A DNA stretch of 64,000 bases, from the NCBI GenBank assembly GCA_000620545.1, contig JIBA01000003.1, forward strand, positions 1 through 64,000, read 5' to 3'. A program made the position numbers and the translations under genes. The notes under the pieces were generated by a model. That model saw nothing but the letters and a program-made list of their open reading frames with translations. It did no database searches and was not told the origin of the DNA. This document shows, one piece after another, positions 6,381 through 44,161 of the stretch. Each line of letters begins with the position of its first letter. The stretch's first letter is position 1. Origin of the DNA: Intrasporangiaceae bacterium URHB0013 (GTDB lineage: Bacteria > Actinomycetota > Actinomycetes > Actinomycetales > Dermatophilaceae).

Positions 6381-7513
6381 GCCTCGAACCGGTCGGTGCC
6401 GACGTCGGTGCCGACGTCGGCGCCGACGTGGGCGCTGACCTGGGTGTGGACGTTGGTCCGGAGGTCGCTGCCGAGGTCGGTGCCGACGGGCGTGGCGCCG
6501 TGACGGACGAACAGGGGCACGAGCAGGTCGGCGAGCTCACGGACCGAACCGGAGTCGACACCGCCCGGCAGGGCGGGCAGCGAGACGATCGGCAGGCCCG
6601 TGGACTCGAGCAGCGCCAGCTGCTGGCGCTCGAGGTCGATGCGCTGCGCGTGGTCGCGGGCCTCCTCGAGCAGGCCGTCGACGAGCTCAGGCGTGGCAGG
6701 CACGCCGGCCTCGCCGAGCTGGGTGCGGATCGACGCCTTGTGCAGCCGTCCCGAGCGGGCCTGTTCGAGGGCCGTGTCGTCGAGGAGCGGCTCGCGCACC
6801 ATGTTGACGATGACGGCGCCGGGGTGCAGGCCCTTGGCGCGCAGCTCGTCGATGGCCTCGAGGGTCTCCTGGACCGGCATCTCCTCGAGCAGGGTGACGA
6901 CGTGCACGACGGTCCGCCGGGACTCGAGCAGCCGCGTGATCGAGCCGGCCTGCGAGGCGATCGGGCCGACGCGGGCCAGGTCGGCGACCTCGGAGTTGAC
7001 GGAGAGGAACCGGCCGATGCGCCCGGTCGGAGGCGCGTCGAGGACGATCCCGTCGTAGACCGGCGGGGCCTCGCCCTTGTGCTTGCCGTCGCGTCGGCGT
7101 CGGTTCGCCTCGTAGATCTTGCCGATGAGCAGGACGTCGCGGACCCCGGGCGCGATGGTCGTCGCGAAGTCGATCGCCCCGAACTTCTCGAGGAGCTTGC
7201 CGGCGCGGCCGAGCTTGTAGAAGAGCTGGAGGTACTCGAGCAGGGCTGCCTTGGGCTCGATCGACAGGCCGACGACCTCGCCGCCTCGGGGCAGTCGCAC
7301 GATGCGGGTTTCTTCGGTGCCGAGGGGAGGCACGTCGAAGGTCTGGCTGATGCCCTGCCGGCCCTCGACCTCCGTGAGCAGGACGTGGCCCGGTGTCGAG
7401 GCCAGGGCCAGCGCTATCGCGGAGGCGACGGTGGTCTTGCCCGTGCCGCCCTTGCCCGTGACGACGTGCAGCCGCGCTCGCGCCCACGGTGCGGCGTCAG
7501 GGTCCGTCGTCAC
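6377..7513 (-). CDS. ArsA/Get3-like P-loop ATPase, first of a pair, with repetitive tail
   Basis: 378 residues. The deviant Walker A is VVTGKGGTGKTTVASA (signature Lys21, Walker Lys26), followed by LLTEVEGRQGISQTF and VLDAPPTGRIGRFL. The catalytic part ends near residue 342. The last 35 or so residues are a degenerate run of GTD/GAD units (for example HVGADVGTDVGTDRFEA) encoded by repeats of GTCGGTGCCGAC. This tail is not a usual part of the family. The same dodecamer occurs in the palindromic array just upstream (7548-7868), so the tail may come from repeat expansion. First gene of the pair; its ATG lies close to the array, so the promoter probably lies within or next to it. Confidence 0.87.
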   Translation of the reverse strand: MTTDPDAAPWARARLHVVTGKGGTGKTTVASAIALALASTPGHVLLTEVEGRQGISQTFDVPPLGTEETRIVRLPRGGEVVGLSIEPKAALLEYLQLFYKLGRAGKLLEKFGAIDFATTIAPGVRDVLLIGKIYEANRRRRDGKHKGEAPPVYDGIVLDAPPTGRIGRFLSVNSEVADLARVGPIASQAGSITRLLESRRTVVHVVTLLEEMPVQETLEAIDELRAKGLHPGAVIVNMVREPLLDDTALEQARSGRLHKASIRTQLGEAGVPATPELVDGLLEEARDHAQRIDLERQQLALLESTGLPIVSLPALPGGVDSGSVRELADLLVPLFVRHGATPVGTDLGSDLRTNVHTQVSAHVGADVGTDVGTDRFEA

Positions 7514-7547: not shown

Positions 7548-7868
7548 GTTCGAGGTGATCCCGGGAGCCACCTCGGTGTCGGCATCACCTCGACCGCGGA
7601 GCTCGTGATCCCCGGGTTCGAGGTGATCCCGGGAGCCACGTCGGTGCCGACATCACCTCGACCGCGGAGCTGACGTGATCCTGGTTCGAGGTGATCGCGG
7701 GAGCCACGTCGGTGCCGACATCACCTCGACCGCGGAGCTGACGTGATCCTGGTTCGAGGTGATCGCGGGAGCCACGTCGGTGCCGACATCACCTCGACCG
7801 CGGAGCTGACGTGATCCTGGTTCGAGGTGAGCGCGGGAGCCACGTCGGTGCCGACATCACCTCGAACC
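7548..7868. repeat. Array A: five tandem palindromic units, 68-bp period
   Basis: Units lie at about 7550-7593, 7617-7661, 7685-7729, 7753-7797 and 7821-7867. Each has a left arm TTCGAGGTGATC and right arm ATCACCTCGA enclosing GCGGGAGCCACGTCGGTGCC or a close variant, then a linker CCGCGGAGCTGACGTGATCC. Within the loop GTCGGTGCCGAC forms a smaller palindrome. Units 3 and 4 are identical; the others differ at a few bases. The array fills the gap between the DUF559 gene's 3' end and the ArsA-like operon's start; no gene is visible in 7514-7886. Confidence 0.9.
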
Positions 7869-7886
7869 AGGAGGTATGCCGGGGCG

Positions 7887-8807
7887 TCAGGCGGCGGCCG
7901 AGCCGAGCTGGGCGTGGCCCTGGGCCACCTGCGACATGAACTCGTTCGTGTGGACGCGTAGCCCGATGAGGTCGATCCGCAGGGCACGGTCGCCCTTGAG
8001 GACGAGCGCGTTGGTGCGGAGGTTGTCGGCGGAGACCGCGAGCGCCCACCGGTGTTGGACCCCGTCGATCTCGACCACCAGGCCGTTGCGCCACCGGACG
8101 TCGAGGTAAGCCCGGCCGTGGTCGGTCTGGACCAGAACCTGCCGATCCGGCTCGGGAAGGCCGTGCGCGCGGCAGAGGCGGGCGAAGTCGAGCTCGCCCA
8201 GCGACTGCACGCCGAGTGCGATGTCCCGCACGACGCTTCTGACGAAGGCTCGGCGCCGCCGGCCACGCATGATCTTCGTCGTCCGCAACAGCTGCTGCGG
8301 GGTGGCGAGCCCTTGCTGGGCGGTCAGGAGCAGGATGAGGGCTGCCTGCCGGTCGCTCACCGCCCAGTGGGCGGCGCGGACAGCGGCCACGGCCGGACGC
8401 GTCCGCGGGATCCCGACTGAGAGCACCTCGTCAGGCACGCGTCGGATCACCTTGTGGGCAGCCACACCGGACGGCCAGTCCACACGCGCCGTATGGATGA
8501 CGGAGCAGTGGATGGCGGGATCGTCGAAATGCTCGAGGCCGGCGACCTGGAGGGCGGTGACACCGTCGACGGCGGCGACCCGGTCGCCGATCTCCCAGAC
8601 GGCACGCCACAGGAGCTCCTCACGTGTCAGTGGTCGCGTGTGCACCGCCACTGTGACGTCACCGTGGACCACCCATCGCTCCGACCGCACCTCGTGTGCG
8701 ACATGGCGTCGCTCGATGCCTGCCGACCGGAGCATCGCTCGCGACACCACACCGCCCTGCGGCTCTGCGAGCTCCCGCGCGAGTCGTCGCCGTTCTGGAC
8801 CTCTCAT
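7887..8807 (-). CDS. DUF559-type (Vsr-like) nuclease-domain protein with AbiEi-like N-terminus
   Basis: 306 residues. The N-terminal 80 residues resemble the winged-helix start of actinobacterial AbiEi-type proteins (GGVVSRAMLRSAGIERRHVA, ERWVVHGDVTVA). The C-terminal third is DUF559-like: SLGELDFARLCRAHGLPEP, then RAYLDVRWRNGLVVEIDG. The E...D...ExD arrangement (LDV and VVEIDG) fits a PD-(D/E)xK fold related to very-short-patch-repair endonuclease. Activity is not proven for this family. Proteins of this layout are common and unexplained in high-GC actinobacteria. Here the gene stands alone between two arrays of the same palindromic repeat, described separately. The start at 8807 is an ATG that gives the family-type N-terminus. 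Confidence 0.75.
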   Translation of the reverse strand: MRGPERRRLARELAEPQGGVVSRAMLRSAGIERRHVAHEVRSERWVVHGDVTVAVHTRPLTREELLWRAVWEIGDRVAAVDGVTALQVAGLEHFDDPAIHCSVIHTARVDWPSGVAAHKVIRRVPDEVLSVGIPRTRPAVAAVRAAHWAVSDRQAALILLLTAQQGLATPQQLLRTTKIMRGRRRRAFVRSVVRDIALGVQSLGELDFARLCRAHGLPEPDRQVLVQTDHGRAYLDVRWRNGLVVEIDGVQHRWALAVSADNLRTNALVLKGDRALRIDLIGLRVHTNEFMSQVAQGHAQLGSAAA

Positions 8808-8901
8808 GACATCCCACGGTCCCGCTGGCCGCGGGCCGATGCGAGCGGCATACGCAATCTGTGGAGGACGACACCACCTCCGCGCGGGGATGTGGACAGC
8901 C

Positions 8902-9234
8902 GGTTCGAGGTGATGACGCGACCGACATGGCTACCGAAATCACCTCGAACCGGGGGCACTGACCCGTGGGTCGAGGTGATGGCGACACTGACGTGGGTGC
9001 CGGGATCACCTCGAACCGGGGGCGCTGGTGAGGCGTCGAGGGTGTCGAGGTGATGGCGACACTGTCGTGTCGGTCGGGATCACCTCGAACCGGGGCCCTA
9101 GTGAGGCGTCGAGGGTGTCGAGGTGATGGGGACACTGTCGTGTCGGTCGGGATCACCTCGAACCGGGGCCCTAGTGAGGCGTCGAGGGTGTCGAGGTGAT
9201 GGTGACACTGACGTGGGTGCCGGGATCACCTCGA
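8902..9234. repeat. Array B: five palindromic units, 73-75 bp period, same core as array A
   Basis: Units lie at about 8902-8951, 8970-9017, 9045-9091, 9118-9164 and 9191-9234. Outer arms are (GGT)TCGAGGTGAT and ATCACCTCGA(ACC). The interior differs: some units carry CGACACTGTCGTGTCG, a nested stem, others ACACTGACGTGGGTGCC. Linkers in the last three units are near identical (GTGAGGCGTCGAGGGTG). The array lies upstream of the DUF559 gene and runs into the 3' end of the hydrolase gene, whose TGA stop (9226-9228) is inside the final right arm. No gene is visible in 8808-9225. Confidence 0.9.
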
Positions 9235-18308: not shown

Positions 18309-18326
18309 CGCCCCACCACACCCCCT

Positions 18327-19036
18327 CGAGTGGTCACTTCGGTACAGGTGCGCGCGTCGAGTGCTCACTTCCGTACGGGTGGGCGTGTACGAAAGTGACC
18401 ACTCGAGTGGGTGCGGCGTCGAGTGCTCACTTCCGCTCGCGTCCTCGAGGTCGGGTGGGAGACCGAGGGACGGGTGGGCGTGTACGAAAGTGACCACTCG
18501 AGTGGGTGCGGCGTCGAGTGCTCACTTCCGTACGAGTGGGCGTGTACGAAAGTGACCACTCGAGTGGGTGCGGGGGTCGAGTGCTCACTTCCGTACGGGT
18601 GGGCGTGTACGAAAGTGACCACTCGAGTGGGTGCGGCGTCGAGTGCTCACTTCCGCTCGCGTCCTCGAGGTCGGGTGGGAGACCGAGGGACGGGTGGGCG
18701 TGTACGAAAGTGACCACTCGAGTGGGTGCGGCGTCGAGTGGTCAGTTCGGCACGGGTGGGTCGTGTGCGGGAGTGACCACTCGAGTGGGTGCGGCGTCGA
18801 GTGCTCACTTCCGTACGGGTGGGTCGTGTACGAAAGTGACCACTCGAGTGGGTGCGGGCGTCGAGTGCTCAGTTCCGTACGGGTGGGTTGTGTACGGGGG
18901 TGACCACTCGAGTGGGTGCGGCGTCGAGTGGTCAGTTCGGTACGGGTGGTCGTGTATGGAAGTGACCACTCGAGTGGGTGCGCGCGTCGAGTGGTCACTT
19001 CGGTACGGGCGCGTTGTGTACGGAAGTGACCACTCG
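18327..19036. repeat. Array C: ten-plus tandem palindromic units, about 63-bp period
   Basis: Left arm CGAGTGSTCASTTCSGTAC and right arm GTACGRAAGTGACCACTCG form a 19-bp imperfect stem round a loop GGGTGGGCGT. Units start at about 18358, 18420, 18515, 18578, 18640, 18735, 18798, 18862, 18925 and 18988, plus a half unit at 18327. Units at 18420 and 18640 have a 33-bp longer loop and are identical, so a 220-bp block was duplicated. Adjacent units meet at CCACTCGAGTGG. In the 18735 unit the arm end changes from GTAC/GTAC to GCAC/GTGC, which keeps pairing. The array fills marP to the acetyltransferase; no gene is visible in 18309-19076. Confidence 0.92.
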
Positions 19037-19076
19037 AGTGGGCGCGGGGGTGGGATTTCCGGGCCAGAATCGGCAC

Positions 19077-34872: not shown

Positions 34873-35143
34873 GAAGGAGCCCCTGTGAGAAGTGGAGATG
34901 CGAGCGCATCATGGCAGAGCGCAACCACCCGAATGTCGCGAATGCACTGAGTTGTGACAGAGATGCGCGCGGACGGCTGGGCACGTACACAGCCGAACGT
35001 CAGCGCTTGCTCTGGATCATGTTCTAGAGCAAGGCCATCGGCTCGATGGTCACGGCCGACCGCCGGCTAAGGAGTGTCGCGCCGGGACGCGGAACGGGCG
35101 CACCACGTGATCGCGGTGCGCCCGTCCAGCCCTCCCCCTCAGC
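34873..35143. other. Subtilase promoter region
   Basis: This 271-bp gap contains the control region of the subtilase gene. It includes an inverted repeat CTTGCTCT (35006-35013) / AGAGCAAG (35026-35033) with a 12-nt spacer, which could be an operator. The terminator of the next gene lies at 35094-35125. No small gene is convincing here. Confidence 0.4.
35094..35125. terminator. Terminator of the 2303-residue surface protein gene
   Basis: ACGGGCGCACC (35094-35104) pairs with GGTGCGCCCGT (35115-35125). It lies 19 bp beyond the stop codon of the gene on the minus strand. Its stem sequence is nearly the same as the terminator at 42342-42371 after the paralogous gene, evidence that gene and terminator were duplicated together. 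Confidence 0.8.
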
Positions 35144-38100
35144 TCACCGGAGCCCGATGTTGACGTAGTACGTCTGGCCGTCGTCGAGCGTGACTCCCAC
35201 TCGCCAGTAGCTGCCGGACTGCGTCTTGTCGGTCTTCCAGTTGTACTGGTACTGCGTGCCGTCCCAGGTGTAGGTCCCTCCGACGGTCTCGGCTGCGGTG
35301 TATGCCGTCTCGTTGACCGCCGCCGCCGTGGTGCCACCCTTGACCGGCGTGAGCCACTTCGGAGCGCTGCCGGCCTGGATGACCTGGCCTGCGGCGTTCT
35401 TGAGCTGGAACTTCATCGGGATGGTCTGGCCGGCGTTGAAGACGCTGGTCGACAGGCCCGTCTGGTGAGCGGTGTCGTTGACCGGTTGGAGGAACAGCGT
35501 GGTGCCGTAGCCGTAGACCACCGTGTAGGTCGCCTTCGCCGTGCCCACGTTGCCGGCCTTGTCGGTCGCCGTGGCGGTGTAGGTGAAGGTGCCGACGCCG
35601 TTGGCCGTGCCGCCGGTCTTGGTGCCCGTTGCCGTGCCGGCGAGACCGCTCGTGCCGTCCGTGGCGGTCGCCGTGGCGGTGGGAACTGCGCCGACGGTGT
35701 AGACGGCGCCTTCCTTGACGCCGCCGATGGTCACGCTCGGGGCGACGGTGTCGACGTTGATGCCGCCGACCGTCGTCGTGCCCTTGTTGCCCGCGTTGTC
35801 CACGGCGGTGCCGGTGGCGTTGTTCGCGCCCTGGGCGGCGAGCGTCGCGTCCGGCTGGCAGCTGGCGATGCCGCTGACTGCGTCCTTGCAGTCAAAGGCG
35901 ACCGTCACGGGTGCGCTGTACCAGCCGGCGGCGTTCGGGCTGGTAGTGGCCTTGCCGGTGATCGTCGGCGCCGTCTTGTCGACCAGGACAGTGACCGTGC
36001 CGGCGGTCTCGACGTTGCCGGCGTTGTCGACGCTCCAGTAGGCGACCTTGTGGGTCCCCTCGCTGGTGACGCTGACCAGGGTGCCGGACTGCTGTGCCCC
36101 GCCGTCGATCGTGTAGTACGTGTCCGCCACACCCGACAGGTTGTCCGTCGCGCTGAGCTTCACGGTGACGTCGCTACTCTGCCAGCCGCTGGGTGCGGTG
36201 GCGTCGGTGCTCGGGGCGTGCCGGTCGATCTTGATGCCCTTCACCGTCGTGCTGCTTGTGTTGTCAGCCTTGTCGCTCACTGAGGCGCTGGTCGACAGGG
36301 CGCTGCCCTCCCCAGTGATGGTGCTGTCTGCCGGACCGTCGCCGTCGATCCCCGAGAGCGCGTCTTCGGCGGTCCACGTGACGGTGACGTTGCCGTTGTA
36401 CCAGCCGTTGTCGTTGGGAGCCGCGGTGGCGGCACCGCTCAGAGTCGGGTCGGTCTTGTCGACGTTGATGCCGGTGATGCTGAAAGCGTCGCTCTCGTTG
36501 TCGGCGGCGTCGGTGGCGGTGCCGCCGGCGCTCTGGGCCTTGCCCTCACCTAGGGTCTTCGCGACGGGGCACGACAGGATGCCGGAGAGGCCGTCCTGGT
36601 CGGCGCAGGTGAACGTCGCGGTGACGTCCGCCTTGAACCACTTGTTGGCGTTCGCCTCGGCCGACAGGCTGCCGGTGACCGTGGGCTTGCTCTTGTCGAT
36701 GCTCACGGTGGCCGGGTCAGTCGCAGTGTTCCCTGCCTTGTCGACTGCCTTTCCTGGGACCGCCTGGTTCTGGCCCTGCGTCGTGACGGTCTTCGGGGCG
36801 GTGCACGAGGCGATGCCGGACCCGCTGTCGGTGCACGTGAAGGTGACGGTCACGTCGCTGTTGTTCCAGCTCCGCTCGTTGGCGGCCGGCGCCTGCGTGT
36901 GGCTGATGCCGGGTGCGGTCTTGTCGATCTTCACCTCGAGGTTCTTCTGCGCCTCGACGTTGCCGGCGACGTCCACGCTCCACACGTGAAGCATGTGCAC
37001 GCCCTCGGTGTCTATCGTGACGCTGGTTCCCGTGCCCACAGGATCCTTGTCGAGCTGGTAGCGCGTGCCCGAGACCCCAGAGAGGTTGTCCTCGGCGGTG
37101 AGCTTCACCGTGACGGCGCTGTCGCTCCAGTCCGAGATGTCGGAGACGGTCGTGCTGGGAGCGGTCCGGTCGATCTTGACCGGGGCGCTCTTCGCCGAGG
37201 TCTCGTTGCCGGCCAGGTCGCGGATCGAGGTGCCGGACGTGAGGCCCTCACCCTCGCTCTGGATAGTGCTGTCGGCGGGCGCGCCGTCGAGGCCCGAGAG
37301 GGCATCAGAGGCGGTCCACCGAATCGTGACGTCACTCTTGTACCAACCGGCCTTGTTGGGGTCAGTGGTCGCCGCCCCCGTCAGGGTGGGCGCGGTCTCA
37401 TCGATGTTGATCGGGCCGACGGTGGCGTCCCTGTTGTTGCCGGCGGTGTCGGTCGCGGTGCCCTTGACCGACTGCCCCTTGCCCTCGCCGAGGGTGGAGG
37501 GTGCAGGGCAGGTGGCGATGCCGGACAGCGCGTCCGCACAGCTGTAGCTCACCGTGACGTCACCGGCGTACCAGCCGTTGATGTTGGCCGCACGGTCGGG
37601 CGCACCGGTGATGGTCGGCTTGACCGTGTCAATGCTGACGGTGGCGTTGTCGGTGAAGGTGTTGTCCGCGTTGTCCACGGCGGTGCCGGGGACTGCCTGG
37701 TCCTGCCCGTCGGTGCTCACCTTGGCGTCGGGCGAGCAGGTCGCCACACCCGAGAGCGCGTCCTTGCAGTCGTATGCAACCGTGACCGGCGTGTTGTTCC
37801 AGCCCTTGGCGTTCGGGGTCGGGGTGACGGTGTGGCCGACCGTCGGCTTGGTGAGGTCGATCTTCACCGTGGCCGCATGGGCGGCCTCGGTGTTGCCGGC
37901 CTCGTCGACGCTCCAGTACTGCAGGGTGTGGACACCCTCCGTGTCGATCGTCAGCAGCGTGCCCTTGACGGACTCGCCACCATCGACCGAGTAATAGGTG
38001 GCGTCCACCCCGGACAAACCGTCGGTCGGGTCCAGGCTGACCGTGACCTTGCTGTTGTTCCAGCCGGCCGGAGCGTTAGCGCCGGTGGTCGGAGCGGTGC

Positions 38101-41100
38101 GGTCGATGTTGACCGCGACGCTGTCGGCGGTGGTGCTGTTGCCGGCCTTGTCGGTAACCGTGGCGGTGTCCTTGAGCCCCCTGCCTTCACCGGCGATGGT
38201 GCTGTTGGCAGGAGCGGACGCCACACCGGAACGGTCGTCATCTGCGGTCCAGTCGATCGTGACGTCGTCCGTGTACCAACCGTTGCCGTTCGCGACGGCG
38301 GTGGGCTTGCCGGACAGCGTTGGCTTGGTCTGGTCGACGTTGATGCCGCCGACCGTGGTGCTGGCCGAGTTGCCGGCCGCGTCGACCGCGGTGCCCTCGA
38401 GGGACTGGTTGGTGCCCTCACCGAAGGTCTTGTCCGCGGTGACGCTGTCGATGCCCGACAAGGTGTCCTTGCCGTCGAAGTGCACGGTGACGTCGGTGTT
38501 GTTCCAGCCCGCCTCGTTGGCGGCCGGGGTGCGACTGCCGGTGATGGTGGGCTTGGTCTTGTCCAGGCTCACCGTCGCCGGGTCCGTGGCGGTGTTTCCG
38601 GCCCTGTCGGTCGCGGTGCCGGTGACCGACTGGTCCTTGCCCTCGGTCGTGACCGTCTGGGGCACGGTGCAGGTGGCGATGCCGGAGAGGTCAGCTTGGT
38701 CGTCGCACGTGAATGTCACGGTGACGTCGGCGTTGTTCCACCCGTTGCCGTTCGCCGCGGGCGAGAGCTCGTGCGTGATGGTGGGGTTGCTCTTGTCGAT
38801 CTGGACCGTGACGGTCTTGGTGAGCTCGGTGTTGCCGGCCTTGTCGGTGCTGCCGTAGGAGATGGTGTGCTTGCCCTCGTCGGTCAAGGTCACCATGGTG
38901 CCGGTCTTCGCGGCGCCACCGTCCACACTGAAGTGCGTGGCGTCGACCCCGGACAGCGCGTCGTGCGGCGTCAGGGTGACGTCGACGCTGCTGTTGAGCC
39001 ACCCGCTGGGCGCCGAGACATCGGTGCTCGGGGCTGTCTTGTCGATCTTCACCGGCTCACTGGTGGCGCCGGTGGTGTTGCCGGCCTTGTCAGAGACGGA
39101 GGCCGAGACTGTCTGGCCCTCGCCTTCGGTCGAAAGGACCGAGTCAGCAGGCTTATCGCCGGTGAGCCCTGAAAGAGCATCGTCCGCGGACCAGGTCTGC
39201 GTGACGTTCGTGTTGTACCAGCCGTTGCCGTTCGGGCCGGTGGTCGGCGCTGCGCTCAGGTTAGGCGCGGTCTTGTCGACGTTGATGCCACTGACGGAGG
39301 TGCTGGCGCTGTTGCCGGCGTTGTCCGTCGCGGTGCCGTCGGCCTTCTGATCAGCGCCCTCGCCCAGGTGCTGGGGGCCGGTCACGGTGTCGATGCCGGA
39401 CAGGCCGTCCTGGCCTTCGAAGGAGACCGTGACGTCGTTCTTGTACCAGCCGGCCGCGTTCGCAGGCCGGTCAGGTGCGCCCGTGATGGTGGGGGCGGCT
39501 TTGTCGATGTTGACGGTCGCGGTGCCGGTGGCGCTGTTGGCGGCATTGTCGGTCGCCGTGCCAGCGACCTCCTGCGCCTTGCCCTCGGTGGAGACCGTGA
39601 TGGGCGCGGTGCAGTCCTTCAGGCCGGACAATTCCGTCTGGTCGGTGCAGGAGAAGCTGACTGCGACGTCGGTGTTGTTCCAGCCGTGCGCGTTCTGCCC
39701 GGGCGACTGGCTCGGCGTGATGCTCGGCGAAGACAGATCCACCTTGACGGTGAAGTTCTTGGCGGCCTCCTTGTTGCCGGCGTTGTCGATCGAGTAGTAG
39801 CTGACGGTGTGGACGCCCTCGGCGCCGACCGTGACGGTGTCGCCCTTGGTCGGGGTGGTCGCGCCGTCGACGGCGTAGTAGATGCTGTCGACGTCGGAGA
39901 GGTTGTCGTTGGCCGCCAGGCCCACGGTGACCGGGGTATTGACCCAGCCGCCGGGAACGCCGGTCGGCGAGGTGGTTGGAGCGGTGCGGTCCACCTTGAT
40001 GCCATCGACCGTTGCGGACGTGGTGTGGCCGGCCCTGTCGGTGACGCTGGCAGAGGCGGACAGGTCGCCGCCCTCGCCGATGACGACCGAGTCGGCCGGG
40101 CAGGCGACGACGCCCGAGAGGTTATCGTCGCAGCTCCAGTGGACCGTGACGTCGCCGGTGAACCAGCCCTCAGCGTTCGGGATGCCGACGACCTTGCCGG
40201 TCATGGTGGGGGCGGTCTTGTCGACGTTGACGGCAGAGGTCGTCACCGACGCGCTGTTGCCGGCGGCATCGGTCGCCGTAACTGTGTCCGTCTGAGCAGC
40301 ACCCTCACCGAAGGTGTGGGCCTTGTCCTGGGTCTTGATGCCTGAGAGGGCGTCGGACGCGGTGTAAGTCGCAGTGACCTCGTCGCCGTACCAGCCGTTG
40401 GCGTTCGGCGCCGGCAGCGCGTCGACGGTGATGACCGGCTTGGTCTTGTCGATGCTGACGCGGGCCGGGTCGGTTGCGGAGTTGCCGGCGTTGTCCTTGA
40501 CGGTGCCCGTCACGGCCTGGGCTTTGCCCTCGGTGGTGACGGTCTGCGGGCCGGTGCAGCTCGCCACTCCGGACAAAGCGTCCGAGCAGGTGAAGGTGAC
40601 GGTGACGTCTTCGTTGTTCCAGCCGTCGGCGTTGGCGGCCGGGCTCTGGGTGTGGCCGATGGTCGGCGAGGTCTTGTCGATGCCGAATGAGACGGTGTGC
40701 GCGCCCTCGGTGTTGCCCGCGACGTCGGTGCTCCAGAACTCCAGGGTGTGGTTCCCCTCCGCCGTGACCGGCACGCTGGTGCCGGCGGTCTGTGCGCCGC
40801 CGTCGAGCTGGTAGAAGGTCTTGTCCACGCCGGACAGTCCGTCGTTGGCGACCAGGGTCAGCGTGACGTCGCTCTTGTTCCACGCGGGCGGAGCGGTGAC
40901 GGTGGTGTTCGGGGCGGTCCGGTCGATCTTCACTGCCGCAGACTGCGCGTTCGTCGAGTTGCCAGCCTTGTCGGTAGCGGTCGCGGTGGAGGTGAGTGCG
41001 GTGCCCTCGCCTGAGATCGTGCTGTTCGCCGGGTTTGTCGTGCCTGACAGTGCGTCCGTAGCGGTCCAAGCGACGGCGACGTCGCCGGTGTACCAACCGG

Positions 41101-42055
41101 CTGCGTTCGGGTTCGTGGTCGGCTTGCCGGAGAGGGTGGGGGCCACCTTGTCGATGTTGATGCCGCTCACCGTCGTGCTCGCGGTGTTGTCCGCGTTGTC
41201 CGTGACGGTGCCGGTGACCGACTGGTTTGCTGCACTGGCGCTGAGCGTCGTCGGGGCGCTCGATGTCTTCACCCCGGATGTCGCGTCGCTCGGCGCGAAG
41301 GACACGGTGACGTCGGTGTTGTTCCAGCCGTTGGCGTTCGCGGCGGGAGTGCGGGAGCCCGTGATCGTGGGGGCGGTCTTGTCGAGCTTGACCGTGACGG
41401 GGGCACTCGTGGTCGTGTTGCCGACGTTGTCGGTGACGGTGGCGGTCTTGGTGACCGTACCGTCGGCGGTGACGGTGTCCGTCGCCGGCGTGATGCTCTT
41501 GACGCCCGAGCCGCCGGTATCGGCGCCGCTCCACGTGACAGTGACGTCGCCCTTGTTCCAGCCCGCGCCGTTGGGGGCGGGGGAGAACGCGCCGGTCGCG
41601 GTGGGGGCGGTGTTGTCGAGCGTGTAGGAGGCGGACTGGATGCCGAACGCCTCATTGCCGTTGGCGGTGCACTTTCCCTGTGGGTTCACGCTCTTCCAGG
41701 CCTTGGTCGTGTAAGTGATCGCGCCACTACCAGAGCCAACACTGAGCCAGGAGTAGGTGGAGCCGCTAAAGATCCACTGACTCTTCGGGTTCTTGTCCGA
41801 GGTCTGGGTCGCAATCGTGGTGCCCGTACCGTCGATCACATCGACGCACTCGGTGTTGCCGTCAGTGTTCAAGGTCAGCGTCAGAGCCGCACCTGACTTG
41901 GCGTACACCGCGCCATTGGCCGCCGTGAAGGTGCCTGCACCGCCGCTGAAGGCGGCGCTCGTCACCGAGGCGGCGTACGAGACGGAGACGTTCGCTCCGG
42001 CGGCCAAAAGTGTCATGGTGGCCGCGGAGGCAGCCAGAAGTGTGCGAGCGCGCAT
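35144..42055 (-). CDS. Giant secreted protein of about 25 Ig-like modules plus C-terminal PxKF module
   Basis: 2303 residues. Signal peptide about 1-28, an N-terminal domain to about 150, then some 25 modules of 76-84 residues. Each has the pattern TAPTITG...GW(N/Y)...DVTV...DALSG...GTATDNAGN...VDK. Modules repeat in a fixed order of four types (A: GWNN with paired Cys; B: GWY; C: GWY with W; D: short with YYxxDGG and YWSVDxAGN). This gives six A-B-C-D blocks of about 310 residues and one extra A. The end (about 2170-2303) has FLQPVNDTAHQTG and IPMKFQLKNAAG, a PxKF module. There is no LPXTG motif and no enzyme domain. It is likely an adhesin or stalk; nothing here shows a ligand. Confidence 0.88.
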   Translation of the reverse strand: MRARTLLAASAATMTLLAAGANVSVSYAASVTSAAFSGGAGTFTAANGAVYAKSGAALTLTLNTDGNTECVDVIDGTGTTIATQTSDKNPKSQWIFSGSTYSWLSVGSGSGAITYTTKAWKSVNPQGKCTANGNEAFGIQSASYTLDNTAPTATGAFSPAPNGAGWNKGDVTVTWSGADTGGSGVKSITPATDTVTADGTVTKTATVTDNVGNTTTSAPVTVKLDKTAPTITGSRTPAANANGWNNTDVTVSFAPSDATSGVKTSSAPTTLSASAANQSVTGTVTDNADNTASTTVSGINIDKVAPTLSGKPTTNPNAAGWYTGDVAVAWTATDALSGTTNPANSTISGEGTALTSTATATDKAGNSTNAQSAAVKIDRTAPNTTVTAPPAWNKSDVTLTLVANDGLSGVDKTFYQLDGGAQTAGTSVPVTAEGNHTLEFWSTDVAGNTEGAHTVSFGIDKTSPTIGHTQSPAANADGWNNEDVTVTFTCSDALSGVASCTGPQTVTTEGKAQAVTGTVKDNAGNSATDPARVSIDKTKPVITVDALPAPNANGWYGDEVTATYTASDALSGIKTQDKAHTFGEGAAQTDTVTATDAAGNSASVTTSAVNVDKTAPTMTGKVVGIPNAEGWFTGDVTVHWSCDDNLSGVVACPADSVVIGEGGDLSASASVTDRAGHTTSATVDGIKVDRTAPTTSPTGVPGGWVNTPVTVGLAANDNLSDVDSIYYAVDGATTPTKGDTVTVGAEGVHTVSYYSIDNAGNKEAAKNFTVKVDLSSPSITPSQSPGQNAHGWNNTDVAVSFSCTDQTELSGLKDCTAPITVSTEGKAQEVAGTATDNAANSATGTATVNIDKAAPTITGAPDRPANAAGWYKNDVTVSFEGQDGLSGIDTVTGPQHLGEGADQKADGTATDNAGNSASTSVSGINVDKTAPNLSAAPTTGPNGNGWYNTNVTQTWSADDALSGLTGDKPADSVLSTEGEGQTVSASVSDKAGNTTGATSEPVKIDKTAPSTDVSAPSGWLNSSVDVTLTPHDALSGVDATHFSVDGGAAKTGTMVTLTDEGKHTISYGSTDKAGNTELTKTVTVQIDKSNPTITHELSPAANGNGWNNADVTVTFTCDDQADLSGIATCTVPQTVTTEGKDQSVTGTATDRAGNTATDPATVSLDKTKPTITGSRTPAANEAGWNNTDVTVHFDGKDTLSGIDSVTADKTFGEGTNQSLEGTAVDAAGNSASTTVGGINVDQTKPTLSGKPTAVANGNGWYTDDVTIDWTADDDRSGVASAPANSTIAGEGRGLKDTATVTDKAGNSTTADSVAVNIDRTAPTTGANAPAGWNNSKVTVSLDPTDGLSGVDATYYSVDGGESVKGTLLTIDTEGVHTLQYWSVDEAGNTEAAHAATVKIDLTKPTVGHTVTPTPNAKGWNNTPVTVAYDCKDALSGVATCSPDAKVSTDGQDQAVPGTAVDNADNTFTDNATVSIDTVKPTITGAPDRAANINGWYAGDVTVSYSCADALSGIATCPAPSTLGEGKGQSVKGTATDTAGNNRDATVGPINIDETAPTLTGAATTDPNKAGWYKSDVTIRWTASDALSGLDGAPADSTIQSEGEGLTSGTSIRDLAGNETSAKSAPVKIDRTAPSTTVSDISDWSDSAVTVKLTAEDNLSGVSGTRYQLDKDPVGTGTSVTIDTEGVHMLHVWSVDVAGNVEAQKNLEVKIDKTAPGISHTQAPAANERSWNNSDVTVTFTCTDSGSGIASCTAPKTVTTQGQNQAVPGKAVDKAGNTATDPATVSIDKSKPTVTGSLSAEANANKWFKADVTATFTCADQDGLSGILSCPVAKTLGEGKAQSAGGTATDAADNESDAFSITGINVDKTDPTLSGAATAAPNDNGWYNGNVTVTWTAEDALSGIDGDGPADSTITGEGSALSTSASVSDKADNTSSTTVKGIKIDRHAPSTDATAPSGWQSSDVTVKLSATDNLSGVADTYYTIDGGAQQSGTLVSVTSEGTHKVAYWSVDNAGNVETAGTVTVLVDKTAPTITGKATTSPNAAGWYSAPVTVAFDCKDAVSGIASCQPDATLAAQGANNATGTAVDNAGNKGTTTVGGINVDTVAPSVTIGGVKEGAVYTVGAVPTATATATDGTSGLAGTATGTKTGGTANGVGTFTYTATATDKAGNVGTAKATYTVVYGYGTTLFLQPVNDTAHQTGLSTSVFNAGQTIPMKFQLKNAAGQVIQAGSAPKWLTPVKGGTTAAAVNETAYTAAETVGGTYTWDGTQYQYNWKTDKTQSGSYWRVGVTLDDGQTYYVNIGLR

Positions 42056-42400: not shown

Positions 42401-44161
42401 CTACTTCAGCTTGAAGAAGGCGAGGTTGCTCGAGCTGCCGTCGTCGGTCGTCACCTTGACCGAGTAGCAGGTGCCTGCGGACTTCGGCGTCTGCCAGTTC
42501 TGGATGAACTGCCCGGAGGTGGCGTCATACCTGAGGGCCGTGCCACCGGTCGTGGTCAGCTCGACCGCGTCCTCCGTGGCCGTCGTCGAGCCGCAGGAGA
42601 CCTTGTTGACGACGAACTTGTCGATCACAGCCGGGTCGGTGAGCTCCTTGGTCCCGGCGAAGACCTCGAACTTCAGCGGCACCGTCGAGCCGCCCTTGAC
42701 GGTGTTCCAGACGCCGCCCATGTCGACGGGCTGGTAGAAGGCCGAGATCGTCCAGGCCTTCACGGTGTAGGCGAACTGTGCGGTGTCCGTGCGACCGGCG
42801 TTGTCGGTCGCCGTGGCGGTCAGCGTGTGGTCCCCGACCGTGGTCGAGTAGCCCGTCACGACACAGCCAGCGGGTCCAGAGACATCATCGTGCGCGGTGC
42901 ACGTCGGCTGGGCCGGCACGTCGCCGAAGTAGTGGCTGGCCCCGAAGTCGGAATCGAACGTCGCGGTCGGGTCCATGAGGTCGATCTTGTAGGTCCCCGA
43001 GGCTGCGCCAGGCGGGGTGACGTTGCCCGCCAGGTCCGAGACCGCGGGGCTGCCGACCGTGACGCTGCCACCTTGCTCGTCGGCGCCGGAGGCGGCGGTG
43101 ACCGAGGGCGCCGCAGCGCCCGAGGTTGCGTCCGTGACGGCGAAGCTCACCGTGACGGGCGATGTGAACCAGCCATTCGAGCCGTGCGTGCCGGACTCCG
43201 TCGTGTAGCTCACGGTCGGTGCCGTCGCGTCCCGCTTGATGCTGACGGTCTGCGTGGCCGCCGTGCCCCCCGCGCTGGTCGCCGAGCAGGAGTATGCCGT
43301 GTCGGGCTGGTCGCTGGTGATGCTCTGGTCGACGCAGCCGGTCTTGACGACGGAGCTCGGTGACTCCGCGTCGGTGACGTGCCAGGTCAGCGCCACATTG
43401 CTGCGGTACCAGCCGTTCTCACCGTCGGCGGTCGCCGGGCTGAGTTCGTAGGAGATGACCGGCGCCGACGCGTCGATGATCGAGTAGGTGACGGATCCCG
43501 TCGCTACGAGGCCACCGTCGTCCTCGTACGAGCAGCTCGCCGTCTGCGAGCCGATGCCGTCAGCGGCGTACGGCCCGGTGATGCCGGAGAGCGTCGCAGC
43601 GAAGCTCGACGGCCCGTCCTCGGCGTCGACGACCTCACAGCTGGCGGCAGGCACCGAGCCCTTGGCATAGGAGGCTCCCGCGGTGACGCCGGTGACCGAG
43701 ACCTGAGGCGGCGTGTTGGCTGTCGCTGCACCGGAGACATTCACGGTGAAGGTCGCTGGAGCGAGATTGAATGCTCCCTGGCTGTCGTTGGAGAACTCTT
43801 TGAGCGAGATCGTGCTCGAGCCGGCCTTGACCGCCGTGACGGTGAGCGTCGGTGTGGCTCCGCAGCTGGAGAAGGTCACGCGCGACGGCGTCACCGTGGC
43901 GACGGCAGAGTCAGACGACAACACGTCCACGACGAGCGTCGTCGAGCCCGTCAGATTGCATCCATTCTTCTCGTCGTCGTTCTCGGGATCCACGGCGAGT
44001 CGGGTGGATCCGGTGGAGCCCACGTTGAGCGGCATGGACTCCGCGCTGGCGTCGATGCTGAGGTCAAGGTTGTTCGTGACGTTGTCAGCCAGAGCGCTGC
44101 TGGCGGTGGCGAAGATGGTGATGGCGGCTGCCGAGGCAGCCAGAATTGAGCGAGCCCGCAT
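42401..44161 (-). CDS. Secreted Ig-like protein with PxKF module, relative of the giant protein
   Basis: 586 residues. The signal peptide MRARSILAASAAAITIF... is nearly that of the giant neighbour. A BACON/Big-like N-terminal domain with paired Cys (about 30-145) is followed by HYR-like and two GW-type Ig modules (ENGWYRSNVALTWHVTD, SNGWFTSPVTVSFAVTD) and the C-terminal module SAFYQPVDMGGVWNTVKGGS and VPLKFEV (PxKF). It has no anchor motif and no enzyme domain. The genes are tandem but each has its own leader and terminator, so they are likely two transcripts under one control. Function unknown. Confidence 0.87.
   Translation of the reverse strand: MRARSILAASAAAITIFATASSALADNVTNNLDLSIDASAESMPLNVGSTGSTRLAVDPENDDEKNGCNLTGSTTLVVDVLSSDSAVATVTPSRVTFSSCGATPTLTVTAVKAGSSTISLKEFSNDSQGAFNLAPATFTVNVSGAATANTPPQVSVTGVTAGASYAKGSVPAASCEVVDAEDGPSSFAATLSGITGPYAADGIGSQTASCSYEDDGGLVATGSVTYSIIDASAPVISYELSPATADGENGWYRSNVALTWHVTDAESPSSVVKTGCVDQSITSDQPDTAYSCSATSAGGTAATQTVSIKRDATAPTVSYTTESGTHGSNGWFTSPVTVSFAVTDATSGAAAPSVTAASGADEQGGSVTVGSPAVSDLAGNVTPPGAASGTYKIDLMDPTATFDSDFGASHYFGDVPAQPTCTAHDDVSGPAGCVVTGYSTTVGDHTLTATATDNAGRTDTAQFAYTVKAWTISAFYQPVDMGGVWNTVKGGSTVPLKFEVFAGTKELTDPAVIDKFVVNKVSCGSTTATEDAVELTTTGGTALRYDATSGQFIQNWQTPKSAGTCYSVKVTTDDGSSSNLAFFKLK

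Follow-up and report, generated by a model that had tools for sequence, protein, structure and literature searches.

To our knowledge, REP/RAYT pairs are the only class in which a bacterial enzyme gene lies among its own dispersed short palindromes. Passages in two papers on REPtrons and REPINs describe repeat clusters flanking the gene, one repeat family per transposase and single-copy genes (PMC3116915, PMC8266576). Here we describe an AbiEi-like/DUF559 gene in a 64,000-nucleotide stretch of an Intrasporangiaceae genome (the window), in which an unrelated protein architecture shows REP/RAYT-type layout and co-diversification. The sequence-only reading of this DNA had likened the locus to REP/RAYT pairs, and the likeness is borne out by a gene bracketed by its own dispersed palindromes and by the co-diversification of repeat and protein. 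As in REPtrons, the gene is flanked by its own repeat family, both here and in the majority of homologues, although not in all. Further parallels with REPtrons and REPINs, as far as those passages describe them, are the conserved ends, variable middle and clustering of the repeats, their extragenic dispersal in trans (three families here, with a fourth being low-copy), and a vertically inherited single-copy gene with several distinct co-diversifying pairs per genome. Unlike RAYT (TnpA-REP) proteins, the protein described here combines an AbiEi-like half with a Vsr/EDxHD-type nuclease and has no conserved HuH motif. The palindrome core also differs from that system in lacking pairing covariation, which makes duplex rather than single-strand recognition likely.

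The EDxHD homing endonuclease I-Bth0305I reportedly forms a dimer on a target that spans nearly 60 bp (PMC3943268). In contrast to this enzyme, the DNA-binding half of the present protein is AbiEi-like. Unlike EDxHD homing endonuclease genes in general, the gene is an ordinary intergenic ORF in a syntenic position, and the short palindrome, not the gene, would spread. With AbiE toxin-antitoxin systems the locus shares an AbiEi-type half (by PADLOC and fold, with Pfam AbiEi_4 below cut-off), but it differs from these type IV systems in its fused nuclease, its dispersed repeats and the lack of AbiEii next door. No AbiEii (DUF1814) toxin gene was found by Pfam in either neighbour of the window gene, these two genes matching ArsA ATPase and alpha/beta hydrolase. 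From the Vsr mismatch nickase, the gene is distinguished by the AbiEi-like fusion and the palindrome bracketing, the flank scores given below being those of AbiEi-like genes.

No paper on a pairing of AbiEi-like/DUF559 genes with palindromes was found in the literature searched, a scope outside which most subscription journals and bioRxiv preprints lay. Within that scope, it looks as if the system works like RAYT without being a member of it and is categorically new. The findings suggest a role for a combination that includes a "domain of unknown function" (AbiEi-like plus DUF559), and they might also yield long-target DNA-binding nucleases.

The window gene and its two palindrome arrays

The gene is an ORF of 306 amino acids on the minus strand (7887..8807), for which our own codon scorer offers an alternative start further in, at 8672. 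Five units of a 44-bp palindrome, TCGAGGTGAT-N24-ATCACCTCGA, lie on each side of it, and both of the five-unit arrays that had been noticed around the gene were mapped. Array A (7550-7593, 7618-7661, 7686-7729, 7754-7797 and 7822-7865; no strand assigned) has 24-bp linkers and the 68-bp period given earlier. The array begins 21 bp beyond the stop codon of the gene, and its unit 5 carries a single arm change. Array B (8905-8948, 8971-9014, 9045-9088, 9118-9161 and 9191-9234; no strand assigned) has linkers of 22-30 bp and lies upstream of the ORF, at a distance of 97 bp from the first start codon. The period of 73-75 bp that had been claimed for it holds for three of its spacings (74, 73 and 73) but not for the first, which is 66. 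Across the window, the arm TCGAGGTGAT was matched 33 times with at most one mismatch, compared with a mean of 4.8 and a maximum of 11 in 100 shuffles.

The arm of the last array B unit (9226..9234, minus strand) gives the last codons and the stop (TCG AGG TGA) of the alpha/beta hydrolase gene, and the same -9 overlap of an arm with the end of a neighbouring gene was found at other sites. The arm at 7550-7559 includes GAGGTGAT, which apparently equals the complement of the 16S rRNA 3' end; this may be a coincidence. Furthermore, a 12-bp tandem repeat, GTCGGTGCCGAC, was observed at 6392-6488, in the 3' part of the ArsA-type ATPase gene.

Architecture of the protein

The protein comprises an N-terminal AbiEi-like half (residues 1-197; 8217..8807, minus strand), the part whose divergence tracks the repeat, and a C-terminal nuclease domain of the Vsr/EDxHD type (residues about 200-303; 7899..8210, minus strand). 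In Pfam, all matches of the window protein were sub-threshold (AbiEi_4, 17.3 bits; AbiEi_3_N, 14.9; DUF559, 14.0), and no match was obtained in NCBIfam. The PADLOC AbiEi models were matched with a best E of 3.8e-8, and a fold search with a structure model returned an AbiEi-type half together with an I-Bth0305I/Vsr (EDxHD homing-endonuclease-type) domain. These two analyses back both labels of the earlier designation, that of a Vsr-like DUF559 gene with an AbiEi-like N-terminus.

In a 62-row alignment, D236, E246, H252 and D261 are invariant, while D248 and Y234 are conserved in at least 90% of the rows. The E, D, H and D catalytic residues of EDxHD are present in the model within the catalytic fold of the family, and from the conserved residues and this fold we infer that the protein probably cuts DNA. 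H252 is the only invariant histidine among the 62 rows, and the columns conserved at 90% are without any histidine; there is thus no conserved HuH pair. Both halves of the model match folds other than HuH, and the lack of HuH folds in the match list was given no weight.

Copies of the palindrome in the genome

The strict TCGAGGTGAT...ATCACCTCGA palindrome has 47 occurrences in the 4.57-Mb genome. When up to three mismatches are allowed, the 44-bp form occurs 54 times, 45 of these copies being exact. The reversed (read-backwards) pattern was found at zero places in the genome search. Among 26 clusters examined, 24 are intergenic and 2 lie inside predicted genes according to our own gene calls, which outside the window were made with a home-made codon scorer. 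The intergenic clusters are located between convergent genes in 10 cases (background, 23 of 123 gaps), between codirectional genes in 12 and between divergent genes in 2. All 12 clusters in codirectional gaps are closer to the 3' end, and 22 of the 24 lie by gene 3' ends overall. At five clusters (window array B, L031, L036, L037 and L043), the arm itself provides a stop codon. Multi-copy sites often have linkers of 22 bp, though the linker sequences vary between sites. The pairing with a protein offers an origin for such species-specific palindrome arrays at gene 3' ends.

Arm and core variation was examined in stretches that include 53 of the 54 copies of the 44-bp form. Among 52 distinct copies, the mean pairwise difference is 1.9% in the arms and 39.4% in the core; the low arm value is partly by construction, because copies were gathered through an arm match with up to 3 mismatches, and the arrays make the copies non-independent in these statistics. 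Core pairs are complementary in 56% of cases, compared with 60% when partners are dealt anew, and 998 of 1000 shuffles gave a value at least as high as that observed. The cores of these copies show no sign of selection for pairing covariation, the arms being too invariant to judge. The conserved core positions (CG, A, CGT, CG) are nearly symmetric among themselves. We read a core without pairing covariation as part of a duplex binding site in which some positions are free, and this suggests recognition of duplex DNA and not a hairpin under selection. The term hairpin used for the repeats in the sequence-only reading was therefore given up, a selected hairpin being unsupported since core pairs do not covary.

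The location close after stop codons, the share of convergent gaps given above and the ability of the arms to pair are features expected if the palindromes acted as intrinsic terminators or as RNA hairpins at 3' ends, with the gene being incidental. We consider this explanation quite improbable: a fixed arm sequence is not required for terminator function, stem pairing shows no compensatory change in the core (the 0.56 observed against 0.60 re-dealt), and both the bracketing of the gene and the tracking of the repeat by the protein speak against it. In the window, Rfam at gathering threshold returned just one tRNA.

Related genes of the same genome and their repeat families

Eight DUF559 places were identified in the genome; the window palindrome is present at only one of them and absent from the other seven. 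The places that are not AbiEi-like are L050 and L055, which look Vsr-like, and L053, which is large and helicase-like, by our reading of the sequences. A paralogue 60% identical to the window protein is accompanied by its own palindrome, which has the form CGGTTCGATGTATTC...GAATACATCGAACCG in one flank and a variant form in the other. At L054:3820-4039, the open frame of the paralogue was observed to continue past the homologous part through the downstream palindrome. Three further AbiEi-like/DUF559 genes carry three more repeat families on both flanks, some of which are not full palindromes. The conclusion that there is no link to DUF559 genes was dropped once each AbiEi-like member proved to have its own repeat family. 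A repeat spread over the genome with no such link had been named beforehand as an outcome against the proposed relationship; the spread was indeed found, whereas the link is present, each family being tied to one protein.

The flank score, defined in this genome as the best ungapped match between 400 bp upstream and 400 bp downstream of a gene, controls included, is 36, 21, 21, 27 and 38 for the five AbiEi-like/DUF559 genes. Only 1 of 212 other genes reaches 21, with which two of the five merely tie. The top control genes lie in the window at 35144-42007 (score 21) and 42401-44161 (score 19), and palindromes with arms like CGGGCGCACCAC, perhaps terminators, were observed near them at 35092 and 42342.

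A larger array, which belongs to another family (TCGAGTGGTCACTT / TCGAGTGCTCACTT), is located in trans in the window (18326..19047, no strand assigned), where it immediately follows a gene for a CvpA/trypsin-like protease. In its half-site, this array is similar to the repeats that flank the AbiEi-like/DUF559 gene at G000:C14:110-112 kb. In the genome, 56 places carry the half-site GTCGAGTGNNCACTT, which is related to the repeats of the L052 gene; 7 of these places are at the L052 gene and 7 in the 18326-19047 array.

Flanking repeats in relatives

A homologue at an E of 1e-20 or better was found in 106 of the 149 genomes of the family. The family set comprised 89 loci, namely 29 initial ones and 60 further listed matches taken in order of E-value, with matches existing beyond those listed; three listed places were skipped, two near a contig start and one with a partial match. 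Loci with short flanks were dropped (4 of 89 in the family and 7 of 80 among the named relatives). The flanks compared were 350 bp long upstream, and downstream they combined 350 bp with the final 60 bp of the gene; the neighbour controls were treated alike.

In the family, 61 of 85 loci reach a score of 19. Among the controls, this score is attained by 2 of the 212 control genes with 400-bp flanks and by 18 of 420 swapped flank pairs, but by none of the 85 shuffled loci. Among the named relatives, the same score is reached by 52 of 73 loci and by none of 198 neighbouring genes (Fisher 5e-39, a p-value that overstates independence because the rows have common ancestry and the family and named sets overlap); swapped pairs reach it in 8 of 360 cases. 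Together with the 5 of 5 against 1 of 212 in the genome itself, these counts show that the repeats cluster with the genes above chance, which the sequence-only reading had proposed as a check. That reading had also counted it as evidence against the pairing if relatives that possess the gene lack the repeat. Such relatives form a minority, with no shared flank repeat at threshold in 24 of 85 family and 21 of 73 named homologues, and among the misses are loci, for example L059 and L066, at which just one flank has a palindrome.

Duplicate removal reduced the 117 bracketed loci to 102, and the layout was described in a 113-locus set that still contains duplicates. Upstream units with inverted arms of 10 or more were observed at 78 of these 113 loci, against 6 of 113 after shuffling. 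The downstream copy lies at a median of 13 bp past the stop codon and the upstream copy at a median of 102 bp before the start. The best-matching flank pair is inverted at 46 loci and direct at 67. Layout and co-diversification span many actinobacterial genera, including Terrabacter, Janibacter, Nocardioides, Cellulomonas, Ruania and others.

Correspondence between repeat and protein

Across the 102 non-redundant loci, repeat similarity correlates with protein identity (Spearman 0.36, the largest of 2000 permutations being 0.12). A repeat is shared by 41 of 42 pairs at protein identities of at least 70%, by 29 of 88 at 60-70%, by 57 of 1324 at 50-60% and by 9 of 3697 below 50%, where seven of the nine share via the stem TCGAGGT. 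Since all 65 same-repeat pairs tested have outer-flank sequence in common, common descent contributes to this correlation. Paralogue pairs within one genome serve as a control for descent: among 17 such pairs, hand-picked from bracketed loci (14 + 3), none shares a repeat, and the same proteins share repeats with orthologues in other genomes (e.g., the window, L057 and L058 versus L054 and L104). The arms thus change together with the protein, as had been suggested for checking, and the co-diversification strongly suggests that each protein recognises its own palindromes. Such sets of protein-repeat pairs within one genome make the specificity directly testable.

The partial correlation with the repeat is 0.337 for the AbiEi-like half given the nuclease half and -0.007 for the reverse. 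By these values, repeat specificity tracks the AbiEi-like half, and the nuclease half adds nothing. Within the AbiEi-like half, the winged helix is the part expected to read DNA; unexpectedly, the middle region carries the correlation (0.335) and the winged helix does not (0.037).

A layout like that of REPtrons and REPINs, in the terms of the passages cited above (PMC3116915, PMC8266576), would also be seen if a conventional REP-associated (HuH/Y1) transposase encoded elsewhere moved the palindromes and the DUF559-type gene were a passenger. With the repeat tracking the DUF559-type protein and each paralogue having its own family, this explanation appears highly improbable.

The leading rival, which we judge unlikely, is a binding-site network without cutting, in which an AbiEi-like regulator or architectural protein occupies selected sites and the nuclease domain has another use. 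AbiEi proteins bind inverted repeats, according to one report (PMC7319586). Also in favour of such a network, the AbiEi-like half tracks the arms, the arms are constrained with the core free, and the upstream copies lie at the median of 102 bp given above. This rival is at odds with the location of most intergenic clusters (22 of 24) at gene 3' ends instead of in promoters, with the repeat also found downstream of the gene (the median of 13 bp past the stop) and in tandem arrays, and with nuclease residues that are invariant in 62 rows.

Proposed mechanism and dispersal across genomes

We favour, with a probability of roughly two in three, the reading that the gene and its palindromes form one co-evolving unit in which the protein recognises the palindromes and maintains or propagates them through cleavage. 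In the steps that we infer, the AbiEi-like half of the protein would contact the palindromes of its own family in duplex form, with a dimer probably occupying the two inverted arms of 10-14 bp, and the Vsr/EDxHD-type domain would then nick or cut at the palindrome. Repair from other copies would keep the arms alike genome-wide and allow tandem arrays to expand. New sites would occasionally be seeded, the survivors lying mainly just after stop codons, and the gene itself would remain single-copy and inherited in place. Such cutting and repair, which we regard as the simplest mechanism, would explain the alike arms with free cores, the growth of arrays, the in-place replacement of families and the presence of one family per paralogue.

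Among the 149 family genomes, TCGAGGTGAT palindromes were identified in 19, with 238 copies. Four genomes with an orthologue of at least 71% identity contain 47, 21, 15 and 99 of these (182 of 238), the 99 exact copies being in G039. G067, G094 and G076 contain 14, 15 and 11 exact copies despite having no close orthologue; in the congeners G067 and G094, no homologue exceeds about 60% identity. The ratios of exact to within-3-mismatch copies are 47/54, 21/30, 15/22 and 99/167 where a close orthologue is present and 14/22, 15/22, 1/7, 0/14 and 11/28 in five genomes without one, with none in G130 and G148; cores could span 19-29 bp in the exact pattern and had to be 24 bp long in the mismatch pattern. 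Decay after gene loss was considered and set aside, the exact-copy ratios showing a trend that is not clear-cut.

A second family is low-copy, with 17 strict copies in 10 of the 149 genomes, several of them adjoining the gene. The GACGTCAT...ATGACGTC palindrome is present in 2-86 copies in 9 of 11 chosen Nocardioides and Pimelobacter genomes and in 1 copy in one of seven others. Two chosen genomes with a different arm at the locus (GACGTGT) contain 0 and, against expectation, 5 copies of it. Dispersal in trans was observed for three repeat families, with the extragenic position mapped for the window family only.

Copies on both flanks, with the best pair inverted at 46 of 113 loci, are also what an IS-like element would leave if gene and flanking palindromes moved as a unit and the dispersed copies were solo ends. 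Such an element is barely credible here: the window locus is colinear in two congeners and another genus, the outer flanks are shared by all the same-repeat pairs tested (65/65), and 67 of 113 pairs are direct.

A joined-flank query located orthologous sites in nine genomes of the genus, and 7 of 11 queried sites were aligned; L045 was scanned only for palindromes, and both sites of L029 as well as the second one of L031 lay outside the alignments. At the L026 site (L026:4001-4044; orthologues L254-L261), a palindrome is present in eight genomes and the ninth is empty. The arms are of five types, with TCGAGGTGAT in four genomes (one with a mismatch) and TCGATGTGTT, TCGATGGATGA, TCGATGTATC and AACGAGGTGGTG in one each, as if one palindrome family replaced another in place. 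A tentative extension of the favoured reading, to which we give somewhat less than even odds, is that AbiEi-EDxHD nucleases may be palindrome drives, a second, non-HuH class of repeat-driving enzyme. The enzyme would cut at or near arm-like sequences, repair would copy the palindrome in, and the arms would sweep the genome in concert; a palindrome of another family at the same chromosomal site could then be replaced.

Inspection of the seven aligned sites by eye revealed neither a target-site duplication nor a clean insertion boundary. At the L027, L036 and L037 sites, the palindrome is absent from several genomes. At L043, it is present in six of eight relatives, five of those six having altered arms. 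At L037, where the arm provides the stop codon, the protein seems to terminate earlier in relatives that lack the palindrome.
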